Virus record (IMG/VR): IMGVR_UViG_3300013128_000014
Location: 1-37,082 of that record
DNA: 37,082 nucleotides
Source: a virus
Reading direction: 5' to 3' (one strand)
Part shown: positions 11,699-18,645 of the stretch, piece by piece
Position numbering within the stretch: the first letter of the stretch is position 1
How the letters are laid out: each line of letters starts with the position of its first letter
Position numbers and translations under genes: made by a program
Notes under the pieces: model-generated
Told to the model about the DNA's origin: nothing
The model's input: the letters and a program-made list of their open reading frames with translations, nothing else
The model's database searches: none

Positions 11699-13882
11699 AT
11701 GGCCGGTGAACTTCTCTCTTCCAAGATTGTTGTCCAGGAAGTCGCGCCCCGCATCGCAGCTCTGCCGGTTGTGCAGACCGCCGTGTTGGGTGCCGTTGGA
11801 CAAGCAGTCCGCGGACCGCTGAACAGCGCAACCCTCGTGACCTCGTTCGAGGAATACGCGCGCATCTTCGGTGAGTACCGCAGCGGCTTCGAGCTTCCGC
11901 TTGGCGTGCGCCAGTTCTTCCTCCAGGGGGGTCGCACGGCGCACATCGTGCGTGCAGGAACCGGTGGTGCTGCCAGCTCCGGGATCGCCCTGAGCGGGTC
12001 GGATGCCTCGGGCACCGTGCTCAGCGCAAACAGCGCCCCGTTCGACCTTGAACCGGGACAGAACCTGGTCGTCTCCGTCGATGGCGGCGGAGATCAGACA
12101 GCGACCTTCGACGCCGCAGCTGCGTTCGTGACGGCGGGCAACACCGGCCCGTACGCTTTGGCCGACAACGACACGTTGACGCTTCGCATCAATGGTGGCA
12201 GCGTCCAGACCATCACGTTCAACGCGTCCGAGTTTGCGAACATTGCCGCAGCAACGGCGGCAGAAGTCGCTGCGGTCGTCAACGCAGAGGGGTCCGGTCT
12301 TTCCGCAACGGTGAACGCAAACGCTGTCCGCATCACGTCGGACCGTCGTGGCACCAGCTCGATCGTCGAGATCACGGGCGGCACCGGCAACACGATCGGC
12401 AAGCTCAACTTCTCCACCACGCCGGTCAACGGCACGGGCGATGTGGCCAACATCGACTCGGTCACGGCTTCGGAAGTTGCCGCGGTGCTGACGGCGGACG
12501 TGACCGGCGCAACCAGCGTCGTCTCAGGTTCGCAGGTTCGCATCACGTCCAACACCTCGGGCCTGTCCTCCAGCGTCCAGGTGAAAGGCACCTCGACGGC
12601 CATCGCCATCGGGTTCGACAACGCCGTTCACAGCGGGTCGGCTTCGGGCCTCACCTCGTCGTTCACGGCAACGGCATCCTCGGTCGGCACGTGGGGCAAC
12701 ACCGTTGTGCTGTTGGTCCGCCCCGCTTCGTCGGGTGTCGCTTCCGAGTTCAACCTGGAGATCCAGGTCAACGGTGCGGTTGCGGAGCGATTCGCCAACC
12801 TGACGACCCTCACGCCTTCGGCAGCGAACTACGTCTCGACCGTGGTCAACGCGTCGCAGACGGGCTCGTTGTACATCACCGTCGCCGTGAACAACGCTGT
12901 TCGCCCGAACGACAACACGGCTCCGGGCGTCGCGCTCACGGGCGGTGCTGAGCCCACGGTCACGGACACGCAGCTCATCGGCGGAACCTCTCCGTCGCTG
13001 ACCGGTATCCGGGCGCTCGACACGGTGGAGGACGTTACCCTCTTGATTGTGCCGGACGGCGCGACGGTCGGCGTACAGAACGCCATGATCACCTACGCCG
13101 AACTCACTCGTAGTCGCCGCATCTTCGCGGTCCTCGACAGCCCCGTCGGTGCAACAGCAGCCGTGATGCTTACGCACATGGCGTCGCTCACCGCCACCGA
13201 GAACGCGGCTATGTACTGGCCGCGCATTCGCATCCCGAACCCGGACCGCACCGTCTACGGCGCGGACGTTGAGAACATCGTGCAGTCGCACTCCGGTGCG
13301 CTTGCTGGTGTCATGGCCCGCAATGACGCTGGCGTGCCCATCGGCCCGTTCACCAACCCGGCGAACGTGGAAGACGGGCGTCTGTTCGGTGTTGTCGGGC
13401 TTGAGACCTCGGAAGTTCTCGAAGAGGCAAAGCGAGACTTGGTGTTCCCGAAGCGTGTGAACCCGATCGTTCGCGTGAACGGTCAGGGCTTCTTCGCGGA
13501 CGGTGCGCGCACCATGCTCGGCACCAGCAACTTCCCCTCGGTTGGCGAGCGCCGCGGCGTTTCGACCATCGAGATTCAGGCGGTCGCTGCTTTGCAGTTC
13601 GCAAAGAACAAGCCGAACACTCCTGAGTTGCGTGAGCGGGTGGAAAACACGCTCATCCAAATCATCCTCCCCTACGTCCAGGTGGGCGCACTGGCATCGC
13701 GAGATCCCAGCAAGGCGTTCTTCGTGGACGTGTCGGACCAGCTGAACAACGCAGCTGTCCAGGCAGCCGGACAGTTGAAAGCCCGCATCGGCCTCGCCAC
13801 AGCAAAGCCAGCAGAGTTCATCGTGCTGCTCGTCACCCAGGACACTCGCGCACTTGAGGAACTTCTCCAGTCGCAGGGATAA
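11699..13882 (+). CDS. Tail sheath protein with repeated inserted domain
   Basis: The sheath surrounds the tail tube and contracts to drive it into the host. The 727-residue protein has the sheath N-terminus ([20 protein letters not shown], then [17 protein letters not shown]). The conserved C-terminal half has [11 protein letters not shown], a variant [20 protein letters not shown] and [20 protein letters not shown]. Between about residues 100 and 330 is an inserted region, absent from minimal sheaths, that holds two related copies of a beta module near 184-227 and 254-297 ([17 protein letters not shown] versus [17 protein letters not shown], each followed by VRITS). These probably protrude from the sheath surface. 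A GGAGG ribosome site lies eight to ten bases before ATG 11699. Confidence 0.94.
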
Positions 13883-13922: not shown

Positions 13923-14429
13923 ATGCCATCTCTTGCAAGTGCTCGTCCGCTACACGAGAAATTCAATTTCACCGTGTTGATCAAAGGTGCGGACTCCCTT
14001 CACTTTCAGAAGGCGTCCGAACTCTCCCAGGAAGTCGCGAAGATCGATTACTGGGAAGGTGGGGCCTTGGTTCCAATCAAGCACCCAGGCCGGGTGACGC
14101 TGTCCGACATCACGTTGGAGCGCGGCGTCGGCACGGACCAGGGGCTGCACGACTGGATGCACCAAGTCGCGGACGTGAAGCTCGCGGGCGGAATCGGCGC
14201 AGGCTTGCCTGTTGCGGATTTCACCCGTGAGGTTTCGATCCTGCAACACAACCGCCCCAAGACGGCGTACATCCGAAAGTACAAGTTGTTCGGCGCCTGG
14301 CCGACCAACTACGTCGCGGGTGACTGGGACAACAGCGTGGACGAGGTCATCATCGAGACGGTGACGATCACCTACGACCAGTTCCGCATGGAGAACCCGA
14401 CGGCCAGCAAGGGTCTTTCGAGCGTCTAA
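13923..14429 (+). CDS. Tail tube protein 1 (T4 gp19 family)
   Basis: This is a 168-residue tube subunit that stacks into the inner channel beneath the sheath. The family signature is clear: [20 protein letters not shown], then [20 protein letters not shown] and [15 protein letters not shown], ending with [17 protein letters not shown] and a strand [13 protein letters not shown]. It starts at ATG 13923 with a GGAGG ribosome site. It follows the sheath directly, the standard order in contractile tails. A second, diverged copy follows at 14444; this first copy is the more likely main tube subunit because it sits next to the sheath and has the stronger ribosome site. Confidence 0.9.
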
Positions 14430-14443
14430 AAAACGGCCTGAGC

Positions 14444-14953
14444 ATGCCAGCTCGCGAACTCTTTGAAGCGTTCAACTTCACCGTTTCGGTTGAAGGTTTC
14501 CCCGAAGAAGGGTTCCACTTTGCGTCATGCAGCGAGTTGGCGTTCTCTCAGGAGCGTATCGGTTTTCGGGAAGCCGGTGCGATCGTCCCCGTCAACGACC
14601 CGGGCTTTGTCGAGTATGACCCAGTCACGCTGACCCGGGGCGCGTCGCGAAACCGGATGCTGTACGACTGGGCCATTGGTGCCGCGTTGGCAGGCCCGGT
14701 GTTCAACTCCGCGGGCTACGTTCGGCGTGAGGTCCAGGTTATCCAGCGTGGACGCGCCCTGGCGTCCAACGGACGTAGCCGCGAGATCATTCAGGTGTAC
14801 ACCCTGCACCGCGCATTCCCGACCAAGTTCGTCGCCGGGGAGTGGGACAACAACAGCGACGCTGTTGTCATCCAGTCCATGACTCTGGCCTACGACTACT
14901 TCACCCTGAAAGTGCGAAAGCACGCAGATCAGCGTCTCGCAACTGGGTTGTAG
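14444..14953 (+). CDS. Tail tube protein 2 (T4 gp19 family paralogue)
   Basis: This 169-residue protein is aligned with the previous one along its full length: FNFTVSVEGF, EAGAIVPVNDPGFVEYDPVT, LTRGASRNRMLYDW, YTLHRAFPTKFVAGEWD and a final VIQSMTLAYDYF. Identity is low by eye, so the duplication is old. Contractile injection systems of the Afp/PVC type also encode a second tube protein that forms the initiator layer between baseplate hub and main tube; the same role is inferred here. It starts 14 bases after the first tube gene without a strong ribosome site, implying lower output. A promoter candidate and paired hairpins follow it. Confidence 0.87.
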   Translation: MPARELFEAFNFTVSVEGFPEEGFHFASCSELAFSQERIGFREAGAIVPVNDPGFVEYDPVTLTRGASRNRMLYDWAIGAALAGPVFNSAGYVRREVQVIQRGRALASNGRSREIIQVYTLHRAFPTKFVAGEWDNNSDAVVIQSMTLAYDYFTLKVRKHADQRLATGL

Positions 14954-14991: not shown

Positions 14992-15028
14992 CCTGCTTTG
15001 CAGGCTTTGGGCATTTCGCCCACGGAGG
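14992..15028 (+). promoter_or_regulatory. Two short hairpins and ribosome site in chaperone leader
   Basis: CCTGC-TTT-GCAGG forms a five-pair hairpin at 14992-15004, and TGGGC-ATTTC-GCCCA a second at 15008-15022. The GGAGG ribosome site at 15024-15028 abuts the second hairpin and lies 11 bases before ATG 15040. The hairpins could tune translation of the chaperone. Neither has a T-tract. Confidence 0.4.
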
Positions 15029-15039
15029 TCACAATACGA

Positions 15040-15900
15040 ATGCGCGTTCAGGAAACATCAAGAGTCGTTTGTCCATCGGGGTTGGTTGGTGAAGTGCGGG
15101 CATTGAGGGTTGCCGAGATCATGGCCATGCAGGACCCGAAAGCCCTGCGGCAAGGCAAGGTCTTCAACCAACTGGTGCAGAGTTGCTGGGTCTCCACGCT
15201 CGAACCCGGCCCATACCACTTCGACATGACGAAGCCGCCGCCTTGGCCGCACATGTTGCACTGTGACAAGATTGTTGCGTTGCGAGAAATTCGCGCGCTG
15301 ACGGGTGGCAGTGACTACGAGTTCGAGATGAAGTGCAGCAGTTGCGAGCATCGCTACATGTGGGTCCAGCCACTGCGCGAGATGCAAACCAAGCCGTTGC
15401 CGCGCGAGACCATCGAGCACGTGCGACAGCAGCAGCTTTTCAAACTCAACATTGGGGACGACTTGGTGGAGTTCCGCCAATTGCTCAACTCCGATGACGA
15501 GCAACTGGTGCGCCTCACACGTGACGGCGTGAACCCCACGACCGCAGGGTTCATTTGCCGCATCGTCAAAGTCACAGGCGGTGACGGCACGCAGTACACG
15601 GACAACCAGGAACTTTCGACGTGGATCGACAACCTGGGTCCGATCGAGTACGACGAATTGGAAATCGGCCTCGACAAGACTGATGGCGGATTGATTCTGG
15701 AAGTCACAGCTGAGTGTCCCAAGTGCGGGTTCTCAGAAGGTGTCGTCGTCCCTTTGCTCCTGTCCATCTCGCGCTCGTCTATCAGGCAATCGAACGTGCT
15801 CGCCAAAGCGAAGATGGAAAAACAGGCGATACCTGGGCACAGCTCAACGATGCCGACACCGACCCAGAATCTCCTAACGGGAGGCTCTGGGGGGACCTAG
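15040..15900 (+). CDS. T4 gp26-like baseplate/tail chaperone, short form
   Basis: This is the 286-residue short form of a protein encoded just before the tape measure, where tail assembly chaperones lie. ATG 15040 is chosen because GGAGG precedes it; the in-frame TTG at 14998 lies inside a hairpin. Motifs are two CxxC pairs, KCSSCEHRYMWVQPL at about residue 107-121 and CPKCGFSEGVVVPL at about 227-240, a zinc-binding pattern typical of the T4 gp26-like family. The middle is helical (LFKLNIGDDLVEFRQLLNS). After VVVPL the reading frame contains a slippery heptamer, and the last 48 residues differ from the -1 frame product. In short form it ends in a Ser/Thr/Gly-rich tail. Confidence 0.78.
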   Translation: MRVQETSRVVCPSGLVGEVRALRVAEIMAMQDPKALRQGKVFNQLVQSCWVSTLEPGPYHFDMTKPPPWPHMLHCDKIVALREIRALTGGSDYEFEMKCSSCEHRYMWVQPLREMQTKPLPRETIEHVRQQQLFKLNIGDDLVEFRQLLNSDDEQLVRLTRDGVNPTTAGFICRIVKVTGGDGTQYTDNQELSTWIDNLGPIEYDELEIGLDKTDGGLILEVTAECPKCGFSEGVVVPLLLSISRSSIRQSNVLAKAKMEKQAIPGHSSTMPTPTQNLLTGGSGGT

Positions 15901-16052
15901 TAAGTCTCACCTGGCAGTACGGGGAAACGGGTGGACCCACCATTACGATTCCCGAACTGTTAGAATTACCACTGGCAGATTACCGGGCTGTGCGAGCAGC
16001 CATCAACCACCATCGAGACGCATTGGCGAAAGCACTAAGAAAGAAAGGGTGA
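15714..16052 (+). CDS. Frameshifted C-terminal extension of tail chaperone (-1 frame)
   Basis: This open frame overlaps the chaperone gene in the -1 frame and ends two bases before the tape measure. The reading frame is open from 15714, but the part expected to be translated after a slip at 15750-15756 begins at 15756. That part encodes 98 residues: APVHLALVYQAIERARQSED, then TWAQLNDADTDPESPNGRLW and a helical C-terminus (ADYRAVRAAINHHRDALAKA). It has no ATG or ribosome site of its own; only a poor GTG at 15714 is available. The joined product would be about 337 residues, equivalent to the G/GT pair of lambda. An independent gene from the GTG is the alternative. Confidence 0.66.
   Translation: MSQVRVLRRCRRPFAPVHLALVYQAIERARQSEDGKTGDTWAQLNDADTDPESPNGRLWGDLVSLTWQYGETGGPTITIPELLELPLADYRAVRAAINHHRDALAKALRKKG
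15750..15756 (+). promoter_or_regulatory. Slippery heptamer for programmed -1 frameshift
   Basis: C-CCT-TTG reads as X-XXY-YYZ in the chaperone frame. Slipping back one base pairs the two tRNAs with CCC and TTT. An AGAAGG Shine-Dalgarno-like sequence at 15735-15740 lies nine bases upstream, the arrangement that stimulates dnaX-type -1 shifts. No clear downstream stem was found. Confidence 0.62.
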
Positions 16053-16053
16053 G

Positions 16054-18645
16054 ATGGCAACCGGCGGCACGGGCGGTGGCAACACCAACAACATAATCAT
16101 CAACACAGAGGTCACGGGTACACAAGCCACGACCGCAAAGTTGAAAGCTACTGCCCAAGCCATTGGGCAAGTTGGTGATGCCGCCCAGGCTTCTGCCCCA
16201 AAAGTGGACCAGGCGAAAAACGCCTACGTGAACATCGCAGGCGCATTCGTTTCGTTGGGCTTGGCACGCAAAGCCATGGACATCATGAAGGGTGTGGTAG
16301 GCGCGGCGACAGAGATTGAGCGTGGCATGGCTAACGTTCAATCTGTTGCGAGGCTGTCCAACGTACAACTTAGTGCGTTGGAAGAGCACTTGATCAATGT
16401 ATCGAACAGCACGGGTCGTACGTTCGAGCAAGTCTCAAGCACAGCCCGTGCGTTGTTCGCCCAGAACTTCAAGCAAGCCGAAGTCGATATGTTGCTTGAG
16501 CCGTTGAGCAAGTTGCAACGGGTTGGCGAAGTCACAGAAAAGCAGTCCACGGATCTCGTTGTCGCGCTCGGTACGATGGGCGTTGCAACCAGCGACGTTA
16601 CGCTGGCATTGGACCACATGAAGCACTTGTCCGACGCATCGTCGTTGGACATGAAGGACTTCATCGAAGTGCTAACCAAGGCAGGCCCGGCTGCGCGTTT
16701 GTCTGGTCAGTCCTTCGGAGAAATGGCGCGTACGGCCACGTTGCTTCGTCGTGGTTTCAAATCCGGTGCGGTCGAAGGCACAGGTTTGAACACCGCGCTG
16801 GTTGCCTTGGGTAACCCGAAGCGTGTCAAGTTCCTCAAGGAAACTTTCAACGTCAACGTCATGGACGAGGCGACAGGCGTGATGCGCCCGTTCACCGACC
16901 TCATGTACGATTTGTCACTCGCCGTGCCCAACGTGAGCAATGGCGTCGGCAGGCTGTTCAAGGAGTTTGGTCCACGTGCAGGTGCGGGCGTTATGGGTGC
17001 TGGTATCCAAGCCTTCCTCGAAGGCATGAAGCTCGCCAATGGTGAAACACTCAAAGGCGCGGATCTACTTCGACAGCTCAAGAAAGAAACCGAGGGCGCT
17101 GGTGGCGAGGTTAATGAATCGTTCAATATCGCAACCAACAACCTACCTGAGCAGTGGCAGCGTCTAACCAACACCATGACGAACCTCTTCGGCATCGTGG
17201 GTCAGCCGCTTATCCACCAAATTACCAAAGTCGTAAAGTTGGTTGCTGATGCCGCGGAAACGTTCTCGAATTGGATCGATAAAGGTGGACACACTTTCAA
17301 GTACGTCGGCGCAACTGTGCTTGGGTTTGGGTTGGTTATCGGCGGTTTGGTTACAAGCATCACTGCCGCTGTCACCATGTTCCAGCTTTTCCGTGCGTCG
17401 ATCACATTCGTGAAGACAGCTACAAACGCGCTGACAACAGAGGTACTTAAACTCGTCAGCGCACAAAGTTTGTTGAAGGGAGGCATTTGGGGCATTGGGG
17501 GTCGCGCTGGCGCCGCGGCGGCTGTGGCAGGTGCGGCAACACAATCAACGTTGACGATGGGACCTGGTGGACGAATGGCTCAGTCCGGCGTCATCAACAC
17601 AGCGGCGAACGTGCCCAGCAAAGTTCTTGGTGCAGGTGCAACTGCCGCAGCACTCACCGGAGGCAGCAGGTTGGCGAAACTTGGTGGGCTCGCATCCAAG
17701 GTGGGTGGCAAACTGCTGAGAAGTTTACCCGTCGTCGGGACCATTGTGACCTTGGGTTCTCTCGCCTACGATCTGTACCAAGACTTCGGGAAGAAGGATG
17801 AGGCGAAGGCAGCGGACGATGCGCAAAAGAAAGCTGGCGAGTCGCTTGAGAAAGGGGCCAAGGGCATCCAGTCCGCAGCACAAGCACTTGAAGCGTCCGC
17901 CACGTTAATGGGCACCGTTGCCAACGGTTTCGACAAGAGCTTACAGGAAGCCGCGCCCACGCTCGTCATTGACGATGTGCTCAAACAAATCCGTGATGCT
18001 GGTCAGTTGATGATCAAGCACAACGCCCCTGACCAACGGTTGATCAAAGACGCAACCGATCGGTTTATGGAAGTGTTGAAGTACTCCAAAGCGGGTGTTG
18101 AGATTACACCCGAGCAGCGCATCAACATGCAGAACGCCATGATGGCGCTGCAAGTGAGAGCGTCGCAGTATGCAGGCGCAGGTGACAAGGAAGCATTGCG
18201 TGTTTCCAAAGGGTTGATTGGGACCTTCAAAACTTTGGGTGCGGCGTTTGCCGAACCGAACCTTATCGCAACACGCATGACCGAAGCCATGACCGCTTCG
18301 GGTTCTTTCTACGATTTGAAAAATGTGCCCGAAGGCGATCTCGCTAAGATCGAGGATCGCATTGAGAACAAACGACGCATGTTTCAGTCGATGGTTCAGA
18401 CGCTCCCCCCCGACGTGCCGTTCGAGCAACGTGTTGCCATCGCAAAGAAAGCAGGGCGCATTTACGGGTCGTCGATGGAGCAACGAGACAAAGAGTTGCA
18501 AATGATCATGTTGCTCACAGACATCGCGAAGACTAACCGTGAAAAAGGGAAGGTAACTTTGACTGTCGGTGGCCAAGACATCGAAGCTGTTATTACAGAC
18601 GCTGTCGCACGCGTAGCCGCTGGTGGTGGAGGTACAAGTCAGTAA
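16054..18645 (+). CDS. Tail tape measure protein
   Basis: The tape measure fills the tube lumen, sets tail length and enters the cell on injection. The 863-residue protein starts at ATG 16054, two bases after the frameshifted chaperone. Residues about 80-300 carry the TP901-type minor-tail core: GAATEIERGMANVQSVARLS, then LALDHMKHLSDASSLDMKDF, and an opening helix KAMDIMKGVV. A hydrophobic segment at about 417-449 (YVGATVLGFGLVIGGLVTSI) and another near 558-575 could cross the host inner membrane. Between them is an Ala/Gly-rich stretch. The C-terminal third is helical and charged. No peptidase or lysozyme motif was seen. The 863 residues would correspond to a tail of very roughly 130 nm at 1.5 angstrom per residue. 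Confidence 0.9.
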   Translation: MATGGTGGGNTNNIIINTEVTGTQATTAKLKATAQAIGQVGDAAQASAPKVDQAKNAYVNIAGAFVSLGLARKAMDIMKGVVGAATEIERGMANVQSVARLSNVQLSALEEHLINVSNSTGRTFEQVSSTARALFAQNFKQAEVDMLLEPLSKLQRVGEVTEKQSTDLVVALGTMGVATSDVTLALDHMKHLSDASSLDMKDFIEVLTKAGPAARLSGQSFGEMARTATLLRRGFKSGAVEGTGLNTALVALGNPKRVKFLKETFNVNVMDEATGVMRPFTDLMYDLSLAVPNVSNGVGRLFKEFGPRAGAGVMGAGIQAFLEGMKLANGETLKGADLLRQLKKETEGAGGEVNESFNIATNNLPEQWQRLTNTMTNLFGIVGQPLIHQITKVVKLVADAAETFSNWIDKGGHTFKYVGATVLGFGLVIGGLVTSITAAVTMFQLFRASITFVKTATNALTTEVLKLVSAQSLLKGGIWGIGGRAGAAAAVAGAATQSTLTMGPGGRMAQSGVINTAANVPSKVLGAGATAAALTGGSRLAKLGGLASKVGGKLLRSLPVVGTIVTLGSLAYDLYQDFGKKDEAKAADDAQKKAGESLEKGAKGIQSAAQALEASATLMGTVANGFDKSLQEAAPTLVIDDVLKQIRDAGQLMIKHNAPDQRLIKDATDRFMEVLKYSKAGVEITPEQRINMQNAMMALQVRASQYAGAGDKEALRVSKGLIGTFKTLGAAFAEPNLIATRMTEAMTASGSFYDLKNVPEGDLAKIEDRIENKRRMFQSMVQTLPPDVPFEQRVAIAKKAGRIYGSSMEQRDKELQMIMLLTDIAKTNREKGKVTLTVGGQDIEAVITDAVARVAAGGGGTSQ

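Follow-up and report, generated by a model that had tools for sequence, protein, structure and literature searches.

The DNA analysed here, hereafter the window, is an IMG/VR virus record of 37,082 bases that represents a genome fragment and encodes a contractile-tail module in the gene order sheath, tube, chaperone and tape measure. The relevant features are as follows:

11699–13882, + strand: tail sheath (phrog_15814, 2.6e-145), used as the bait for relatives and independent of the heptamer
14444–14953, + strand: gp19-like tail tube protein, the second of a tandem two (PF06841)
15040–15900, + strand: gp26-like gene (PF12322, 25.0 bits against a cut-off of 24.5), whose zero frame gives the proposed short form, TAC-N, of 286 amino acids
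15735–15740, + strand: AGAAGG, a possible but weak Shine-Dalgarno-like stimulator nine bases before the heptamer (about -2.1 kcal/mol)
15750–15756, + strand: slippery heptamer C CCT TTG, the proposed -1 slip site, from phase and conservation
15750–16052, + strand: -1 frame extension, which is proposed to encode the C-terminal domain of TAC-NC, the long form, over 100 codons counted from the heptamer
15757–15900, + strand: overlap in which both frames would be read, as the zero-frame tail of TAC-N and the start of the -1 extension (both open over 15757–15897)
16054–18645, + strand: tape measure protein (PF10145, 9e-15), which starts directly behind the -1 stop

The gene at 15040–16052 is thus placed as a frameshifted chaperone would be, between the tube gene and the tape measure gene. 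GGAGG at 15024–15028 lies ahead of its start, and the gp26-like protein contains two CxxC pairs. The tube gene itself is duplicated, with tandem gp19-like copies at 13923–14429 and 14444–14953 that are about 36% identical, and the same tandem pair occurs in locus L006. A search of the phage collection gave no relative of the chaperone in the window, nor of its tape measure.

The gp26-like identity proposed in the original prediction, which was made from the letters alone, is supported by Pfam, profile and fold comparisons. The window's protein scores above the curated cut-off of PF12322 (T4_baseplate, the gp26 family), and this entry is matched at E ≤ 0.01 by 58 of 61 family members, with a best E value of 1.4e-15. 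When nine sequences were searched with a family profile, T4 gp26 was recovered with an E value of 3.5e-4, and T4 gp51 weakly (E 0.1). The AlphaFold2 model of the N-domain (pLDDT 91.5) matches T4-like baseplate hub assembly proteins and gp26 in BFVD, with a best E value of 1.3e-12. In the PDB, its best match is the HK97 tail assembly chaperone 2ob9, with a Z score of 5.2, which is under 8, and an rmsd of 2.7 over 66 aligned residues; the next row has a Z score of 2.7.

Through 15750–15756, the zero frame reads GTC CCT TTG, so that the heptamer has the X XXY YYZ phase claimed for it, and CCCTTTG is the sole in-phase XXXYYYZ within the gp26-like ORF 15040–15900. Elsewhere in the window, 24 ORFs with 9,441 codons contain 20 in-phase XXXYYYZ sites, none of which is CCCTTT. 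The -1 frame had been predicted to run openly to the tape measure, and it does so from 15714 to a stop at 16050–16052, one base short of the tape measure ATG at 16054. It had also been said to lack a start of its own: this holds for ATG, which is absent from this frame, but two GTG codons are present at 15714 and 15723, both upstream of the heptamer. These two codons exist because of the cysteine codons of the CxxC pair. From the heptamer to the last 60 codons of the -1 ORF, GTG and TTG are absent as well.

The frame arrangement could in principle be a sequencing or assembly indel, or a decayed gene, in which case the two frames would really be one ORF, given that the window comes from one metagenomic contig, without reads. 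In another contig the frame arrangement is identical and free of indels, and it must therefore be real; furthermore, the -1 arrangement recurs in all 62 non-redundant loci described below, which leaves this explanation a next to negligible chance.

Relatives were first collected by means of the sheath protein (93 sources), so the heptamer had no role in their choice; a few near-copies of the window that were found otherwise fall into the window's own cluster. A gp26-like ORF is present in 86 of the 93 sources. Seven sources without a chaperone ORF were left out (L031, L033, L061, L065, L066, L079 and L090), and for the first six of these the locus ends at most about 700 bases from the sheath match. 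L090 extends 2.6 kb beyond the sheath without a chaperone match and, after 8686, shows an unrelated long ORF behind the sheath and tube; it is perhaps a broken prophage with an inserted element. Six of the 86 are cut ahead of the site and were also left out (L002, L005, L015, L057, L068 and L080). The site could be placed in the remaining 80, which form 62 clusters below 95% identity, the window's cluster included. L101 and L102 gave no match, and the plasmid collection gave no match to a family member.

Comparison of these 62 non-redundant loci reveals CCCTTT in phase at the codon aligned to P238 of the window in 56, where each gene's codon usage would predict 2.5. The codon preceding the proline ends in C in 57 of 62 and the proline codon is CCT in 57 of 62, while the codon next to it is TTC in 40, TTT in 9, TTG in 5, TTA in 5 and another in 3. 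By comparison, these genes have 575 other proline codons, 68 of them CCT, and not one of the 575 is part of a CCCTTT. The six exceptions carry an in-phase T TTT TTC, T TTT TTT or A AAT TTT four to five codons downstream, from which the -1 frame is open. A second set, obtained by a chaperone-protein search with degenerate codons together with three further loci, added 29 new clusters. Two of these are not assessable (L143, with a broken frame, and L150, truncated), and all 27 others are slippery, comprising 23 with CCCTTTN and 4 with T TTT TT(C/G). Over both sets, a slippery heptamer is found in 89 of 91 clusters, the other two being those not assessable; it is CCCTTTN in 79 of the 89, and the remaining 10 have another in-phase slippery heptamer close downstream. 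Conservation in relatives, a check named in the original prediction, is therefore borne out, and the family has the conserved in-phase slippery sequence expected of a frameshifted tail assembly chaperone. A quick tree of 89 rows gives five changes of site type on the best topology, and its well-supported branches force only one. In addition, L104 (LR756511.1), an uncultured phage of 595 kb, has GGT TTT TTC in phase at the end of its gp26-like gene, followed by a -1 extension, which implies that the frameshift scheme extends to very large phage genomes.

The same comparison bears on where and how the frame would change. A slip elsewhere in the overlap had been raised in the form of a run of five A near 15820; the stretch GGAAAAAC is A-rich, and both frames are open around it. 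This run is not an in-phase XXXYYYZ, whereas 56 of the 62 non-redundant loci retain CCCTTT at its position, making a slip elsewhere extremely unlikely. Slippage by RNA polymerase, which would yield a fraction of frame-shifted mRNAs, would suit the T runs of six or more at the site in some relatives. However, the CCCTTT of 79 of 89 loci, the window among them, consists mostly of runs of three and is held in a fixed codon phase, and we regard polymerase slippage as very improbable.

The -1 products of all 62 loci of the first set belong to one domain family, and an overlapping -1 ORF directed toward the tape measure is present in each of the 62 (3 cut by a contig end). The alignment of this C-domain contains 59 members, the 3 at contig ends being left out, and its consensus comprises LFP, a QHGGSGL motif, LEL and a basic, alanine-rich helical end. 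Forty of the 59 C-domains match phrog_20255, an unnamed PHROG, and the window's own C-domain falls below a match. This PHROG is apparently a frameshift-encoded chaperone C-domain and may be mis-split in databases. Pfam has no family for the C-domain, with stray matches of single members among the 59 searched; one of the 59 matches P2 GpE with an E value of 0.03, which amounts to a hint at most. As modelled by AlphaFold2, the C-domain is helical (pLDDT 80.3), in agreement with the helix-rich product foreseen for the -1 frame, and has no significant fold match in the PDB or BFVD. Two low-ranking BFVD matches of the C-domain have accessions that adjoin those of N-domain matches (A0A343LED6/7 and G4KKH9/G4KKI0).

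Substitutions in 18 pairs of relatives, not all of them independent, total 330/191/751 at zero-frame codon positions 1/2/3 upstream of the heptamer and 209/135/481 at -1-frame codon positions 1/2/3 past the zero-frame stop. The overlap gives 105/61/64, with substitutions at 230 of 1,238 sites, a lower rate than the 1,272 of 5,391 upstream and the 825 of 3,415 past the stop. The pattern is that of one coding frame upstream, another past the stop, and both at once in the overlap.

A coding -1 frame could also be a separate protein with its own start, for example at GTG 15714 or 15723, coupled to the upstream gene. Besides these two codons of the window, at least one ATG, GTG or TTG precedes the last 60 codons of the -1 ORF in 50 of 62 loci, and PHROGs holds the C-domain as a stand-alone family, phrog_20255. 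Yet this region of the -1 ORF is free of all three start codons in 12 of 62 loci, free of ATG in 46 of 62, and contains no start with a Shine-Dalgarno-like tetramer in 49 of 62. On the basis of these counts, internal initiation is unlikely as a general explanation. Furthermore, the frequent GTG codons at -12 and -9 codons derive from Cys codons after G, and a separate start leaves the synonymous conservation of CCCTTT unexplained. We therefore consider a separately initiated protein quite unlikely.

Taken as a whole, the data comprise an in-phase site, its conservation, a coding and homologous -1 extension, and synteny, and we assign a probability of about 0.88 to the reading, made from sequence, that the gene at 15040–16052 is a T4 gp26-type tail assembly chaperone produced in a short and a long form by programmed -1 frameshifting. 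What we infer is that ribosomes slip, how efficiently they do so, and how the two forms share the work. In the proposed mechanism, the majority of ribosomes would stay in the zero frame and make TAC-N, 286 amino acids long, up to the stop at 15898–15900. A minority would move back one base at C CCT TTG, with the P-site tRNA-Pro re-pairing from CCU to CCC and the A-site tRNA-Leu from UUG to UUU, and would continue to 16052, making TAC-NC. The predicted junction in TAC-NC is VVVPL-APVHLALV, and the shift would add the helical C-terminal domain. If lambda gpG/gpGT is taken as a model, the N-domain may coat the tape measure protein, and the rare long form may recruit tail tube subunits through its C-domain. 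The tRNA-Leu of the window would be mismatched on UUU in the A site, making the Leu codon probably the less favoured form; most relatives have UUC or UUU in the A site, so that tRNA-Phe would re-pair on UUU without mismatch.

One natural variant bears directly on how much of the site would be required. A single IMG/VR contig, recovered as L001, L003, L007 and L018, matches the window over 8,063 bases with seven mismatches and no gap (99.9% identical). One of the seven is T to C at 15754, which turns the heptamer into CCCTCTG (C CCT CTG); the change is silent in the zero frame (Leu) and replaces F by S in the -1 frame. CCCTCTG breaks the A-site half and, of all the observations, weighs most against the idea that this phage strictly requires the complete heptamer. 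The base change may reflect genuine variation or a choice made in assembly. The copies of this contig sit in the window's cluster, and the variant is therefore invisible in the count of 62.

Across the 56 CCCTTT loci, Shine-Dalgarno pairing at spacings 4–8 is stronger than in at least 198 of 200 synonymous resamplings (reached by 0–2 of 200). The AGAAGG that the original prediction called SD-like is indeed positioned nine bases ahead of the heptamer, but it is a weaker Shine-Dalgarno match than the family average, and the claim made for it was too strong. No stable structure was detected downstream of the heptamer in the window (z 0.12), while the family shows a slight downstream excess (mean z -0.5 to -0.65, against about 0 upstream). 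A search of Rfam with 15600–16200 gave a single match, far below its gathering score. According to PMC5009743, some tailed phages seem able to shift at low efficiency with no stimulatory signals.

Frameshifted chaperones of this general kind have precedents. PMC5009743 describes lambda-type G-T frameshifting as widely conserved in long-tailed phages except T4, with P2 and its relatives among the users, and gives the direction of the shift as -1, -2 or +1, varying by phage. The present gene resembles lambda gpG/gpGT in its location before the tape measure gene (PMC5009743); it differs in belonging to another sequence family, PF12322 with two CxxC pairs, in its C CCT TTN site, and in coming from a contractile phage. 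A frameshifted chaperone in a contractile phage is not in itself new, and the notability that the original prediction attached to it was too strong. The tail of P2 is contractile, and its chaperone frameshift genes are E and E'. P2 is one such precedent, and the Pseudomonas phage Adele, with the Vandenendeviridae, is another: according to PMC12846349, these are contractile, their -1 shift is predicted by comparative genomics, and the -1 ORF, upstream of the tape measure, is annotated as hypothetical. The predicted site there is GTTTTT, whereas the present family has mostly C CCT TTN and a few T TTT TTY; the same source mentions T-rich signals in T4-like TAC-N genes (PMC12846349).

Our comparison with T4 reveals likeness in the N-domain, which is gp26-like by profile and by BFVD folds, and a difference in arrangement: in T4, genes 26 and 51 are separate and lie on opposite strands, while here there is one gene and a frameshift. 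According to PMC10885494, which cites Vladimirov 2022, some T4-like phages have a short gene and a long fused gene instead of a frameshift; from this source and the sequences, we read T4 gp51 as the long form. The tail of T4 gp51 scores 14.3 against the C-domain profile, where the best of 20 shuffled controls reaches 11.0, but it stays well short of significance at an HH-suite probability of 1.7%; the likeness is suggestive. The 37 kb window holds one PF12322-like ORF and no separate full-length gene for the long form in the T4 style, and its long form is reachable solely by a change of frame.

In four further loci from cultured phages (L093, L096, L095 and L103), sequence resembling the C-domain lies in the +1 frame behind a gp26-like gene. 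The phages are the Streptomyces phages LuckySocke and BRock, Microcystis phage Mel-JY01 and Streptococcus phage vB_SagM-GXN1. With nine frames searched, LuckySocke matches the profile weakly (0.013), the match of BRock is fair (2.7e-4) and that of Mel-JY01 is better (2.2e-6); the likeness in vB_SagM-GXN1 was seen by eye only. These pieces are annotated as hypothetical proteins or unannotated, and the arrangement suggests +1 (or -2) shifts in these four phages.

No description of C CCT TTN in a gp26-type chaperone was recognised in the open-licence literature, judged from titles and the starts of abstracts. The kind of system is already known, and the new variant appears to be the combination of a gp26-type protein, C CCT TTN and a large, mostly uncultured family. 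The finding corrects an annotation, in that phrog_20255, listed as an unknown family, appears to be a chaperone C-domain. Slippage on C CCU UUN is readily testable with a reporter, and the natural CCCTCTG variant would indicate what part of the heptamer is required. A large gp26-type family with a nearly fixed heptamer links the frameshift and two-gene arrangements. We tentatively suggest, at somewhat less than even odds, that frameshifting was ancestral for the two chaperone forms in the T4 gp26 family, and that T4 genes 26 and 51 arose by duplication followed by in-frame fusion of the -1 extension. On this reading, the slip site would have shifted inside the family from C CCT TTN to T-runs, and some cultured phages would have their C-domain in the +1 frame. 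If true, it would explain why T4 is without the frameshift.
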